DNA of 64,000 nt from Acutalibacter sp. Its GTDB lineage: Bacteria; Bacillota; Clostridia; Oscillospirales; Acutalibacteraceae. Each line of letters begins with the position of its first letter. Within the stretch, counting starts at the first letter, position 1. This document shows positions 40,332 to 48,141 of the stretch, one piece after another. A program made the translations under genes and the position numbers. The notes under the pieces are model-generated. The model saw only the letters and a list, made by a program, of their open reading frames with translations. It did not search any database and had not been told where the DNA came from. The stretch is taken from contig JAFLRP010000107.1 of the NCBI GenBank assembly GCA_022511515.1, positions 1 through 64,000 of the forward strand, written 5' to 3'.

Positions 40332-40718
40332 ATGGCTCTTATGAAATCTACTACTCGCAGACTGCCCGACGCGGAGTTGGAAGTGATGCAGGCGGTTTGG
40401 GCCTGCACGCCGCCGGTACAAAGGGCGGAAATAGAGGAACTGTTAAAGGACACCCATCCCATGGCGCAGACCACCCTGCTGACTTTGCTGACCCGCCTGT
40501 CGGAACGGGGATTCCTCAAAATTGAGAAAGTGGGGAGGAGCGCCAGATACATTCCCCTTGTGACGAAGGAGGAGTATCTTGCGGAACAGAGCAGGCGCTT
40601 TTTTGATAAGCTTTGCGGCGGCAGCTTGTCCACCTTTGCGGCGGCGTTGTGCAGCAGCGGCCTGACGAAAGAGGAGATCGCCGAGCTCCGGGCGTTGATG
40701 GACGAGGGCAAGCTATGA
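40332..40718 (+). CDS. BlaI/MecI-family repressor
   Basis: LPDAELEVMQAVWACTPPVQRAEIEELL...TTLLTLLTRLSERGFL. Confidence 0.9.
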   Translation: MALMKSTTRRLPDAELEVMQAVWACTPPVQRAEIEELLKDTHPMAQTTLLTLLTRLSERGFLKIEKVGRSARYIPLVTKEEYLAEQSRRFFDKLCGGSLSTFAAALCSSGLTKEEIAELRALMDEGKL

Positions 40719-42580
40719 GTATAGATCTTGTTCTGAAAGGCTTTTTCGTGATGCTGTACAGCTCCGTATTTGCCTGGCTCGTGTTCTCCCGGAGCGACAA
40801 AGAAGTGGGCACGGAAAATTTTATGGGCGAGAAGCGGCGCTACATGCCCTATGTCTTTGGAGCGGTGCTGCCCTTGTTTCTCCTTGTTTTGGTGATCTTC
40901 GGTTTTGCCCTTTACGGGGCGGCCTTCACGGCGCAGCTTGCCCTTTCCATGTGCTTCAGCATCTTTCTGCATATCAGCCTGTACTATGCCGTGCTGATGC
41001 TCCTGCTTCCGCTGCTGAGGAGGCGGATCAGTGCCAGAGCCTGTGCCGTTCTCTGGCTGCTTCCCAATTATCTGTATCTTACAACGCTGAGCTCCATGAA
41101 AGTGTCGGAACCGCTTTGGGTGATCCGCGTGGCCGGCAATTGGGTTTGGGTTCTGTTTGGGATCTGGTTCATCGGCTTTGTGACCGTGCTGTTGTGGAAC
41201 ATTGTCTCCCACTTGCAGTTCCGGAGAAAAGTTTTGAAAGGCGCCTATCCCGTCACCGTCGATGAGCCCTGTTGGGATTTGTGGGTGCAGGAGATTATGG
41301 ACGGCGGGATCAGGAAACCGGATTTCAAACTAATGATTTCCCCCAACATTTCCTCCCCCTTGACCGTCGGCCTTTTCCGCCGGACCACAAAGGTGCTGCT
41401 GCCGGAGCGCCCCTATTCCATGGAAGAACTGCAGTTGATCTTCCGCCATGAGGTCATTCACATCGGCAGGGAGGACTGTTGGTCAAAATTCTTCCTGCTG
41501 TTCTGCGCCGCCATGTGCTGGTTCAATCCTCTGATGTGGATCGCCATGCGGAAAAGCGCGGAAGATTTGGAGCTCTCCTGCGACGAAACCGCGCTGTTGG
41601 GCGCTGACGGAGAAAAGCGCCGGCAATATGCCGACCTGATCTTGACCACCGCCGGAGAGGGGCGGGGCTTCACCTCCTGCCTGTCCGCCGCCGCATCGTC
41701 CATGCGGTATCGGCTGAAATCCATTGTGAAGCCCGGTCAACGCCGGTCCGGTGCCATCATCGTGGGGTTGACCTTTTTCGTGCTCTGCATGACCTGCGGC
41801 TATACTGCTCTGGCCTACGGCGGCAGCACCGGCGAAGAAGTGCTGTTCAAAAATCGAGATCACAGCGAGATTCATGTGCGCTCTATCTCCCTGCGGGGGG
41901 ATGAATTTCAAAGGATTTATACCTGTACGGATGAAGCCGCTTTTTTGGACTATCTTGCCGGGCTGGAACTGGACCATCTGACGGGCAACTATTCTTTTTC
42001 CGAAGCCGGAAAGCGATTTTGCTACGTTTTGGACGCCCCTCACTACGACATGGTGATCGATCTGTTTGACCGAGCCATCAAGGTGGTACCTCTGGCGCCG
42101 AACTTAGAAGCGACATACTACTACCTGCCGGAGGGCGTGGACTGGGACTATTTGGACACCATCATTGTGGAGTACCCGGCGTTAAATCTTCATTTGACAG
42201 CGTCTGAAAAGTCTCACAACAGGAATCTTGACATCTCCGCAACGCTGGAACAGGTGGCCGTGGAAGAAAACGGCGGGGAAAGGATTTTGTATGAATCCGG
42301 CCGCCCGAAAAACGAGAGCCCGTCCGGCGTCATCGGCTATAAGTCGTCTGAAGCCGTATTCTCCTTTTCCCAGCCTTTGGCCGGGCCGTTTACGGTGGAA
42401 ATGGAAAACTGGAACCGCACTTCCCGCAAGGTGGTCTCCCAGGACGAGTTGGACGATCCCTACGTTCTTCCCCTGCCGTCCATTCCTGTGCACTGCAAGG
42501 TTTCCGGGGATTTTTTAGGCAACGACGGAAGAATTTACAAGGCGGAGTTCCTGTTTGAGATCGGGGAAATGGATAGTTAA
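40715..42580 (+). CDS. BlaR1/MecR1-like M56 membrane metallopeptidase with unrecognised C-terminal extracellular domain
   Basis: FRHEVIHIGREDCWSK (HExxH), LSCDETALL, multiple TM; ATG overlaps blaI stop. Confidence 0.88.
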   Translation: MSIDLVLKGFFVMLYSSVFAWLVFSRSDKEVGTENFMGEKRRYMPYVFGAVLPLFLLVLVIFGFALYGAAFTAQLALSMCFSIFLHISLYYAVLMLLLPLLRRRISARACAVLWLLPNYLYLTTLSSMKVSEPLWVIRVAGNWVWVLFGIWFIGFVTVLLWNIVSHLQFRRKVLKGAYPVTVDEPCWDLWVQEIMDGGIRKPDFKLMISPNISSPLTVGLFRRTTKVLLPERPYSMEELQLIFRHEVIHIGREDCWSKFFLLFCAAMCWFNPLMWIAMRKSAEDLELSCDETALLGADGEKRRQYADLILTTAGEGRGFTSCLSAAASSMRYRLKSIVKPGQRRSGAIIVGLTFFVLCMTCGYTALAYGGSTGEEVLFKNRDHSEIHVRSISLRGDEFQRIYTCTDEAAFLDYLAGLELDHLTGNYSFSEAGKRFCYVLDAPHYDMVIDLFDRAIKVVPLAPNLEATYYYLPEGVDWDYLDTIIVEYPALNLHLTASEKSHNRNLDISATLEQVAVEENGGERILYESGRPKNESPSGVIGYKSSEAVFSFSQPLAGPFTVEMENWNRTSRKVVSQDELDDPYVLPLPSIPVHCKVSGDFLGNDGRIYKAEFLFEIGEMDS

Positions 42581-43832: not shown

Positions 43833-43856
43833 GTTTTTTATCTCGGTGCGAAAACC

Positions 43857-43957
43857 GAATATGCACTTGGGGTAAAAATCACTTTGCATGATATAGACCT
43901 TGAGGGAGTAATCCCTTGGGGTCTATTTTTGTGCCGAGAAATCGTGGAAAGCCTTGT
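43857..43957 (+). repeat. 101-bp direct repeat copy 1 containing GNRA-tetraloop hairpin
   Basis: tagaccttgaggga-gtaa-tcccttggggtctatttttg; ungapped alignment to copy 2. Confidence 0.75.
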
Positions 43958-44208: not shown

Positions 44209-44397
44209 ATGATGATTTGCACCTGTCCACACTGTGGAGCTCATTTGGAAATCGAGGAAAATGATTCTACGCCTGGTTGCAGAGAATTGGAAGAAGTGGT
44301 ATGTCCGGTTTGCCGGGAGGAAGTAATAAAGGTGTTCACCAGCGGTATTCCACGGGCATATGAAGTCGAAATATCTTCTGCACCGGAGAACAAATAA
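44209..44397 (+). CDS. small zinc-ribbon-like protein (two CxxC)
   Basis: CTCPHCGAHLEIEEN...VVCPVCREEVIKV; SD gggaggtgg. Confidence 0.7.
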   Translation: MMICTCPHCGAHLEIEENDSTPGCRELEEVVCPVCREEVIKVFTSGIPRAYEVEISSAPENK

Positions 44398-44577
44398 GAT
44401 GTACTCAAACGAAATGCTTATGGTAATACAGTGCTCGCAAAGGGATTTTGTGGGCCAAACTATCTGGATCATGAGAACGATCGAAATGATTTGAGCTAAT
44501 TCTTATTGACAAAACTGTTTAGAAAAATTCTAGCAGGAGCAAGTGGAAGAAATTTCAGATATTTCAATGCTCCACTC

Positions 44578-44678
44578 GGATATGCGAGTGAGGCAAAAAC
44601 TACTTTGCAGCAGATAGGCCTTGAGGGAGCAATCCCTTGGGGTCTATTTTTGTTCCGAAAAAGCGTGGAAAGCCTTGT
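44578..44678 (+). repeat. 101-bp direct repeat copy 2 containing GNRA-tetraloop hairpin
   Basis: taggccttgaggga-gcaa-tcccttggggtctatttttg. Confidence 0.75.
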
Positions 44679-44855: not shown

Positions 44856-46985
44856 GTGAACGAATTGGATAATAGGTTTTATAAAGTTGACTTACATGTG
44901 CATACCCCTGCTTCAAAGTGCTTTGAAGGGGATAAATCTGATAATGGATATTGGGAAATATTGAGAGGTGCGGTTAAGAATGAAGTCCGCGTTATTGCTA
45001 TTACGGATCATAATACGTTGAAAGGCTATGAAAATTTGGTCAATTTGAGGGAGCAGACTAAAAATGAGTATGAGATTATTCAGAAGTATACTGTGACCGA
45101 AGAGGAAAAAAGAGAATTAAGGGAAAAAGTCGAGTTATTCGAAAAGATATACATATTATTGGGTGTTGAGATTACTCTTAACCCAGGGGTTCACATTATA
45201 GTTCTTTGCTCAGAAAATGAAAAAGCGGAATTGAATGAGTTGTTAGAGGAAATCGGTTATACATCTGAGCAGCGTGGCTCTGATTCGGATTTTTCTCCCA
45301 ATGTGGATGTGAAAACATTTTTAGCTAATCCAAAATTGAATGGAAAAATTGTGTATGCGCCTCATGTGGATTCTAATAAAGGTATTTGGAATGATTTGAA
45401 AGGCAAATATAGAGAAGAAATCTTCAGTACGAATTGTATTAATGCCATAAGTTGCAATAATTCTTCACAATTGCTTAATATTAAGCAGTTAGTTGCATCG
45501 CAACCTGGTTATGTTCGCAAAAAGCCTTTCGCTTATATAAATGCTTCAGATGCACATCTTGGATCTAATGTAGGTTCTAAGTATTCGTTTTTTTCTTTAG
45601 CCGAGTTTTCGTTTGAGGAAGTAAAAAGAGCATTTGAGTCTCCAGAAGAGAAAATTAGCGATATAGAACGACCAGATTTTAAGAATTTTGTAGACAGATG
45701 TGTAGAAAATAATAAATCAGTTTTTGTGAATGATGTCGAAGAATTGCCAAAATCAATTTGCGCTATATTGAATAGTGGGTATGGTTATGTGTTTTTGGGC
45801 ATCACAGAAAACAAGTTGTATAGCGGAGTGAGCATTACAGAAGACGGCCTGAGAAATGATATAAACAGTTCAATGGACCGACTCTCTACAGCTAGTCAAA
45901 GACCCGCAATGATTGATTGTGGTATAGTTACTGAAAAGTTGGGGAATGGGAAATTTGCTTTTGCAATTTCAGTTAAAGTTAATAGCCGCGAGTTATGGGT
46001 GTTAGATGATAAAGAAACATATATTTTGAGTGGCAATGGCGTTGTTAAATCCGCAACGATTAAGGATATAGAAGTAATAGTAAAAGAGAATGTTTTGAAT
46101 GAATTGCGAGCTTTTAATAAAAGGAACGATGTAATTATAAAGAGTGCGATGAACAAGATGGCTCAAGTGGCTTCTCCAATTTCTAAGTATTATCTATTTG
46201 ACAAATTAGCTTTAAGATCTATCCCGCTTGGAGAACTTTTTAGTATTCAATATGTATATAAAAATAGTTCGGACAGCATTAGCATGGATACGTTTAAAAA
46301 AATTAATGGGCAGGCTGTGGGAAATGTTTTTTACATCACCGGAAATAATCCAAGGTTAGACTATGCGTGTTTAAGGTATTCTTGCCCCAGATATGATAGC
46401 GCAGATGAAGATTATATTTCAAAATTGCAAAAGTTTCAGGGACCAGCAATAATTGTTTCTTCTAAGGGAGGATGTCATTTAGTTGATACACCAGACGAAT
46501 TCTTTCTTGATGTACGAGATAACGCGCTAATTTTGATGCCTAAAGAAGACTTAAGAAAACGGCAAGTGTCGTTGTACCATGCTATTGCTTGGTTAAAGTC
46601 CAGCTTTTTCATTTGGGCATGTCTCGAAAAGTTAGAAAACATCAATTTCTATAAAGCGGATATCTTTATGAAATCATTTTTTGCTGCTGACCGTGGATTT
46701 ATTGAGAATAAAGACATTGAGTTGTTGGTATTGGATATTTTTGATAAAGAGAAGCAGTTTCTTATCGATACCAGCAATTTAGGTGAGGGCGATGCTGAAA
46801 ATTATGCTGTGTTATGCGACCAACATAATCAGAGAATTGCAGAAATATCCCATCATATAGAGGATATTATTCGGAGCATCTATCAAATTTCAGATGAAGA
46901 AATGAAATTGATCAATGATGATTTGCGTGCAGAAAGCATATATACCATTTCACCGTGCAATGAACAATCAGGTGAATCAGTATAA
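44856..46985 (+). CDS. PHP-domain protein fused to AlbA_2/Schlafen-like and restriction-methylase-TRD-like domains
   Basis: PHP motifs KVDLHVHT, AITDHNT, GVEIT, YAPHVDS, INASDAHLG; NSGYGYVFLGITENKLYSGVS...YILSGNGVVKSATIKDI; C-terminal IPLGELFSI...HAIAWLKSSFFIWAC...IEDIIRSIYQISDEEMKLI. Confidence 0.75.
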   Translation: MNELDNRFYKVDLHVHTPASKCFEGDKSDNGYWEILRGAVKNEVRVIAITDHNTLKGYENLVNLREQTKNEYEIIQKYTVTEEEKRELREKVELFEKIYILLGVEITLNPGVHIIVLCSENEKAELNELLEEIGYTSEQRGSDSDFSPNVDVKTFLANPKLNGKIVYAPHVDSNKGIWNDLKGKYREEIFSTNCINAISCNNSSQLLNIKQLVASQPGYVRKKPFAYINASDAHLGSNVGSKYSFFSLAEFSFEEVKRAFESPEEKISDIERPDFKNFVDRCVENNKSVFVNDVEELPKSICAILNSGYGYVFLGITENKLYSGVSITEDGLRNDINSSMDRLSTASQRPAMIDCGIVTEKLGNGKFAFAISVKVNSRELWVLDDKETYILSGNGVVKSATIKDIEVIVKENVLNELRAFNKRNDVIIKSAMNKMAQVASPISKYYLFDKLALRSIPLGELFSIQYVYKNSSDSISMDTFKKINGQAVGNVFYITGNNPRLDYACLRYSCPRYDSADEDYISKLQKFQGPAIIVSSKGGCHLVDTPDEFFLDVRDNALILMPKEDLRKRQVSLYHAIAWLKSSFFIWACLEKLENINFYKADIFMKSFFAADRGFIENKDIELLVLDIFDKEKQFLIDTSNLGEGDAENYAVLCDQHNQRIAEISHHIEDIIRSIYQISDEEMKLINDDLRAESIYTISPCNEQSGESV

Positions 46986-47051: not shown

Positions 47052-47429
47052 ATGAAAAAGAGAGACTTTAAAAACGCGCTGTATGATTTATTAGACCAAG
47101 ATGTCGATATGCAGGACATATCTGATAAAATCAGTTTTGCAAAAGCATTGCTCATTGAATATCAAAAAAGTAATGAGAACCTTTTTGATACGTCGAATAA
47201 GGGACAACCGTGGACGGATGAGGAACTTGAGATTATCCTATCTGAGGCACCCACAAAAGAAAACTGCGCCCGCTTTGCGAGGTTGTTCAAGCGTGGCTAT
47301 GGGAGCATAGAACAGATATATCGTTGGGCGGCAACTTCTTCAAATGAAATTGAGGACAAGGGGCGTACGCAGGATGCTTTTATTCAGCAAATAAAGCGTG
47401 CTGTTAAAAAGATAGGTTTCCGCGCATAG
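47052..47429 (+). CDS. small protein with SANT/Myb-like motif
   Basis: QPWTDEELEIILSEAPTKENCARFARLFKRGYGSIEQIYRWA; SD aggaggga. Confidence 0.6.
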   Translation: MKKRDFKNALYDLLDQDVDMQDISDKISFAKALLIEYQKSNENLFDTSNKGQPWTDEELEIILSEAPTKENCARFARLFKRGYGSIEQIYRWAATSSNEIEDKGRTQDAFIQQIKRAVKKIGFRA

Positions 47430-47619
47430 CGCAACGACTCTTGTGATCAACGGCGATAACAATATGATAACAAGAGGGCATATGGGCTGTATAATATGGA
47501 TAATTCAAATAATCAAAAGACACACAGATACGGCAGATAATAATTCCTAAACGGAATTGTTTAATCTTTGTCGAGTGGGAATAACGCCCCAAATATCAGT
47601 GGTTTTGGGGGATGATTCT

Positions 47620-48141
47620 GTGATTAACAGGATACTCAACCGGATTGTAGTTGCTCTGTTGTTTGCGGCATTGTTATTGCTGAGTGGGTGCAATTCACAA
47701 GATTATTCAAAGGATTTTTCTGATATTATTCCTTTGAACTTCAGCGCTACTGCAGACGTTGTTGAGCAATTTGAAAATGCGGCTTTTGGAAATTCTGATT
47801 GCCGAATCATATCGGGAGAAATTGGCGGCGAGTGCCGCGTGGGATATGAGCAATGTGAATCATCTGATGAAAAGGTGTACTCCAGACATTACTACTCTTT
47901 TGACGAATCAGGGACACTTGTGTCGATCGACTTTCGTTCGCTTGTGGGAACAAAAGATTCCAGCACAAAATGTGTACACTGGGAACAGTATGTTGATGTG
48001 ATAGAAAAGGCTTTTGGAAAATGGGACTACGTTGACAAGTCAGGGCGTTGTGAACTATATGGCAGTATTGACGGCATCCCGTGCAAAATTCTGTATTACC
48101 CGCATTTAAGTGTCAGTTTCTACAATGTAACAAACGAATGA
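47620..48141 (+). CDS. lipoprotein of unknown function
   Basis: lipobox LLLLSGCNS; probable GTG start. Confidence 0.6.
   Translation: MINRILNRIVVALLFAALLLLSGCNSQDYSKDFSDIIPLNFSATADVVEQFENAAFGNSDCRIISGEIGGECRVGYEQCESSDEKVYSRHYYSFDESGTLVSIDFRSLVGTKDSSTKCVHWEQYVDVIEKAFGKWDYVDKSGRCELYGSIDGIPCKILYYPHLSVSFYNVTNE

Follow-up and report, generated by a model that had tools for sequence, protein, structure and literature searches.

Bacterial immunity is increasingly found to include PHP effectors, such as Ppl, and Schlafen domains, and the way in which target-recognition domains (TRDs) read DNA is well understood. Ppl (PADLOC Ppl; NF042955) is a single-gene anti-phage PHP–NTPase; it has been described as an exonuclease that degrades single-stranded DNA in the 3'-5' direction and is relieved when nucleotides are depleted and 3' ends are present (PMC12904381). 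TrlF (NF045780) and Spaf_1101 (NF045781) are PHP–AAA ATPases. In this study we analysed a stretch of 64,000 nucleotides from Acutalibacter sp. (assembly GCA_022511515.1, contig JAFLRP010000107.1, positions 1 to 64,000; here called the window), in which a single uninterrupted open reading frame of 709 amino acids, without internal stop, encodes a fusion of a PHP domain, an AlbA_2/Schlafen-like domain and a TRD-like region. The fusion looks like a form of PHP-based phage defence that is encoded by a single gene and has apparently not been described. Judged from the sequence and a structural model, the chances are evenly balanced that the gene is a horizontally moving single-gene anti-phage effector, whose PHP nuclease would be guided to DNA by a recognition domain of the restriction type. 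The gene and its parts are:

44856-46985 (+), PHP–AlbA_2–TRD fusion gene; 709 amino acids from GTG 44856, 706 from TTG 44865
44856-45659 (+), PHP phosphoesterase/nuclease-type domain; residues 1-268 (domain approx. 7-268), nine metal ligands
45660-46067 (+), AlbA_2/Schlafen-like domain; residues 269-404, from Pfam and PDB profiles, Glu-Glu-Asp RNase triad not conserved
46068-46217 (+), predicted long helix between AlbA_2 and the TRD-like part; residues about 402-454, from the AlphaFold2 model
46218-46550 (+), predicted TRD-like core with the type I S subunit/N6-methylase fold; residues about 455-565, from structure only
46551-46925 (+), TaqI_C/Eco57I-type C-terminal tail; residues about 566-690 (IAWLKSS...IEDIIRSIY...), from a profile match

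A preliminary description of this gene, made from the sequence letters, had proposed a full set of PHP metal ligands, and this was borne out. The motifs HVHT, TDHN, GVEIT, PGVHIIVL, APHVDS and SDAH were all present. The ligands H14, H16, D51, H52, E105, H113, H170, D232 and H234 were invariant in all nine full-length sequences of the family and throughout a 22-row alignment, so that by its sequence the protein carries the ligand set of the PHP superfamily. The Pfam PHP match was slightly under the cut-off (3.9e-5, 24.5 bits against 26.4). The curated NCBIfam profiles matched within residues 7-281 (TrlF 2.3e-29, Spaf_1101 1.7e-28 and Ppl 2.9e-17), and PADLOC Ppl matched the PHP domain at 2.1e-9. 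In a PHP tree the family grouped with the Spaf_1101/TrlF-like PHP-ATPases (support 97/87). In sequence terms, the nearest relatives of the domain are the PHP parts of TrlF, Spaf_1101 and the anti-phage Ppl; among defence proteins with this type of PHP that have been studied, Ppl is the closest.

The likeness to these proteins ended with the PHP domain. Ppl shares with the fusion a homologous PHP domain and the single-gene architecture, but the fusion has no NTPase domain, and AlbA_2 and the TRD stand in that place. TrlF and Spaf_1101 have the PHP domains nearest to that of the fusion by profile and tree, but the fusion lacks their AAA-like ATPase and the match is confined to residues 7-281. 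The full-length scores stayed far below the curated cut-offs (61.9 bits against 1000 for Ppl, covering residues 7-267 only; 102.8 against 350 for TrlF; 99.6 against 475 for Spaf_1101). Restriction-modification systems encode a cognate methyltransferase alongside; as had been noted before, no methyltransferase domain was found in the fusion protein, and none was found adjoining its gene in the window. From these scores and the missing methyltransferase we concluded that the fusion is not a member of those systems. No named Pfam, NCBIfam or PADLOC family spans the whole protein, and a literature search, which did not cover one preprint on bacterial Schlafens, found no paper describing a PHP–Schlafen–TRD fusion.

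The middle of the protein, earlier described as AlbA_2/Schlafen-like, matched Pfam SLFN_AlbA_2 above the cut-off (8.5e-7, 30 bits against 25.3), and the family profile matched solved Schlafen structures among the PDB profiles. Both the PHP and the SLFN_AlbA_2 Pfam profiles matched all ten members of the family alignment. The AlbA_2 fold is common to the fusion and to Schlafen and bacterial AlbA_2 proteins, but in the fusion it is joined to PHP and TRD parts. A Glu-Glu-Asp triad is required for the RNase activity of SLFN13 (PMC5862951). In the segment of the fusion family that corresponds to this triad (E205, E210 and D248 of the rat protein), as far as an alignment with a single canonical AlbA_2 protein shows, without superposition, no conserved acidic residues were found. 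By sequence, the AlbA_2 domain is therefore without the Schlafen RNase catalytic triad.

For the C-terminus we used an AlphaFold2 model of residues 270-709, built from a 9-sequence alignment with a mean pLDDT of 77 (a single-sequence model reached only 34). In a Foldseek search, which does not say which part of the model matched, the best PDB match was the type I S subunit 1yf2 (E 1.2e-4), followed by Schlafens and by M.TaqI (9.8e-3). The top four structural matches in BFVD were adenine DNA methyltransferases from giant viruses or a restriction endonuclease. In profile-profile comparison the tail, residues 566-690, lay within a stretch that matched a TaqI_C protein profile (P 9e-10), and the controls (reversed, block-shuffled, PHP and AlbA_2) gave P 0.05 or worse. 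Taken by itself, the TRD core (455-565) matched neither the TaqI_C nor the type I S profile, and no sequence match to the C-terminus was obtained with the type I S and MmeI profiles. A PADLOC Specificity_I match was weak, came from one family member and is a hint only. The Pfam scan of the C-terminus returned nothing credible; matches to TssO, IMS_C and others were weak, concerned one member each and were rejected as chance. On the model, the C-terminus has the TRD fold and the C-terminal helical tail of a restriction-modification specificity domain. It shares this fold and a homologous tail with type I S subunits and the specificity domains of TaqI/Eco57I-type N6-methylases, but the chain holds neither a methyltransferase domain nor a second TRD. 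The preliminary description had proposed a TRD-like end and had made its reading depend on AlbA_2 and TRD similarity in a predicted structure; similarity to both was found.

As the Schlafen triad and the ATPase of Ppl and TrlF are both missing, the PHP domain is the only recognisable catalytic centre and the likely effector, with AlbA_2 and the TRD as the likely sensor. The PHP domain was the best conserved part (mean identity 39.9%; 16.7-27.1% in the AlbA_2, helix and TRD parts), and a conserved PHP beside faster-diverging parts is the pattern expected of an effector and a sensor. We suppose that the TRD would bind a target in invading DNA, recognised by its sequence or by its state of modification. 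AlbA_2 and the long helix may bind a nucleotide or nucleic acid and pass the signal on, so that the module would occupy the place of the ATPase sensor of Ppl and TrlF. The PHP domain would then hydrolyse phosphodiester bonds of nearby nucleic acid, most likely trimming DNA 3' ends as reported for Ppl. Self DNA might be spared because the host genome lacks the target or has it masked, or by a Ppl-like nucleotide gate. On present evidence, and by analogy, the fusion would function as a defence effector of the PHP kind that carries a reader of the restriction type. The more specific proposal falls somewhat short of an even chance: a restriction-like defence in which a classic TRD of the restriction-modification type, acting by way of a catalytically dead Schlafen domain, guides a PHP exonuclease in place of an endonuclease or a methyltransferase, all in one polypeptide without a modification enzyme. 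If correct, this would be a new effector–sensor combination in one polypeptide, and the union of the three parts would mean that the PHP effector can be combined with different sensors. It would also provide a compact, testable nuclease that has a restriction-type recognition domain and no modification partner.

The window protein alone as query found no relative in the genome, viral, phage or plasmid collections, and the family was recovered by a search with a two-sequence alignment. Eight full-length homologues were obtained (L008, L009, L010, L011, L013, L014, L015 and L038, the last equal to L002/L007), and a ninth, L012, was interrupted by an IS21-type element. The TRD-bearing family spans three phyla, Bacillota, Bacteroidota and Chloroflexota. 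It was rare, being present in one of 377 genomes of the order (the own genome only) and in two of 388 genomes of the class (the own genome and G325). Plasmid searches with L010 and L013 gave no full-length member, only PHP parts of Ppl and TrlF. Monophyly of the TRD-bearing group was favoured weakly in the PHP tree (69/41).

Clear defence neighbours were found at five homologue loci. In L009 an MmeI-type IIG enzyme ends 36 nucleotides upstream of the fusion gene, and this was the only locus with a methyltransferase next to it. In L008 an Mrr_cat protein lies about 97 nucleotides upstream, in L010 HamA and HamB (Hachiman) adjoin the gene convergently, and in L012 a SIR2 protein is encoded upstream of the broken copy. 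The gene 76 nucleotides upstream in L013 encodes an AlbA_2–HATPase_c_4–wHTH (Schlafen-HK) protein, an architecture that has been named a Schlafen effector associated with BREX (PMC12839542). A NERD protein next to L038 is weak evidence, and the contig of L015 is too short for a neighbourhood reading.

The window gene itself lies in an AT-rich island, as proposed earlier. Over approx. 4 kb (about 44.0-48.2 kb) the GC content was 0.31-0.47, against about 0.55 in the surroundings. The segment with the fusion gene is flanked by a GMP-synthase-type gene and by cotJC, both of which occur in congeners. In the eight regions compared the similarity ended at these two genes; the intervening segment is thus not common to them. 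Boundaries of a mobile element were looked for at the island and not found. Together, the homologue neighbours, the patchy spread and the low GC supported the association with defence that had been suggested.

Instead of reading DNA, the TRD-like end could be a protein-interaction domain or a sensor of phage proteins, whose activation would release the PHP domain, which would break down nucleic acid or a nucleotide and arrest growth by abortive infection. The C-terminus evolves fast, the sequence profile matches its helical tail only, and Schlafen-linked prokaryotic systems have been described as phage-signal sensing and abortive (PMC12839542), but the proteins matched by structure are the DNA-binding S subunit and M.TaqI rather than sensor domains, and we regard this explanation as unlikely. 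Slightly more doubtful is a satellite role in restriction-modification, the TRD reading the sites of a host methyltransferase or pairing with a methyltransferase, and the PHP domain destroying unmodified or cut DNA after restriction. The short distances to the MmeI-type and Mrr-type genes in L009 and L008 would fit this, as would a type I S gene that the own genome carries on a different contig, but no restriction-modification gene was noticed beside the fusion in the window, L010, L011, L014 or L038.

PHP proteins are often housekeeping enzymes of DNA repair or of RNA or nucleotide processing, and the defence neighbours could be incidental. A core context does exist among related proteins. 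PHP–AlbA_2 proteins of Chloroflexota and Rubrobacter (mostly about 570-620 amino acids, unnamed) have the same domain order as the fusion, but lack the TRD and are encoded behind lon. Such TRD-less proteins formed a separate, well-supported clade (99/98), mostly of Chloroflexota. We found lon near L016 and 11 of 18 further TRD-less loci (several contigs end too early to tell), against none of the seven TRD-bearing loci tested. Architecture and context thus change together, since it is the TRD-less relatives that sit behind lon. Core contexts, which if consistent had been named beforehand as a sign against a defence role, were seen for these relatives only. As the TRD-bearing family is missing from nearly all relatives, is not near lon and occurs by defence genes, and as the fusion gene lies in a low-GC segment, a housekeeping function appears about as improbable as the satellite role.

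Several points also weigh against a single-gene effector steered by a restriction-type domain. The TRD core is backed by structure alone, and the whole-model TM-scores are low because the model holds several domains. No recognised defence neighbour was found at the window copy, L011 or L014. The neighbour enrichment comes from few loci, with the TRD-less relatives as the sole contrast set and no random-locus control. Finally, without a methyltransferase in the gene the classic restriction logic has no protection arm.

The translation start is probably TTG 44865 (706 amino acids), three codons past GTG 44856. We preferred this start because the N-termini of L008 (MDNEFYK) and L009 (MDNKFYK) align with it, and because it lies approx. 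8 nucleotides 3' of GGGAAAGG, a better spacing than that of GTG 44856.

The TRD-less loci that follow the lon protease gene were L016, L019, L020, L022, L023, L024, L026, L028, L032, L033, L035 and L039. At these loci in Chloroflexota and Rubrobacter, a response-regulator-like gene was sometimes found in between and a MoaB-like gene after.

Other features were observed in and around the low-GC segment. A 119-nucleotide direct repeat (43839-43957 and 44560-44678, +) has copies that are 80% identical, with no further copies in the genome; the first copy holds a terminator-like stem-loop and a T-run. Between the copies lies a small open reading frame (44210-44398, +; about 62 amino acids) with CxxC pairs like those of a zinc ribbon and with a good Shine-Dalgarno sequence. 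Downstream of the fusion gene, an open reading frame of 125 amino acids (47052-47429, +) has a strong Shine-Dalgarno sequence. It had no match among 193 other genomes of the class; a relative of about 50% identity is a hypothetical protein in the his operon of Pasteurella multocida, in records labelled plasmids. We rejected it as a partner gene, as no such gene was noted next to the remaining full-length homologues, and the only relatives found were in that operon. A lipoprotein-like open reading frame of 194 amino acids (47557-48141, +), also within the segment, had no family match in Pfam or NCBIfam. Upstream of the second GMP-synthase-type gene, a BlaI-like repressor and a BlaR1-like membrane sensor form a pair at 40332-42580 (+), as read by eye.
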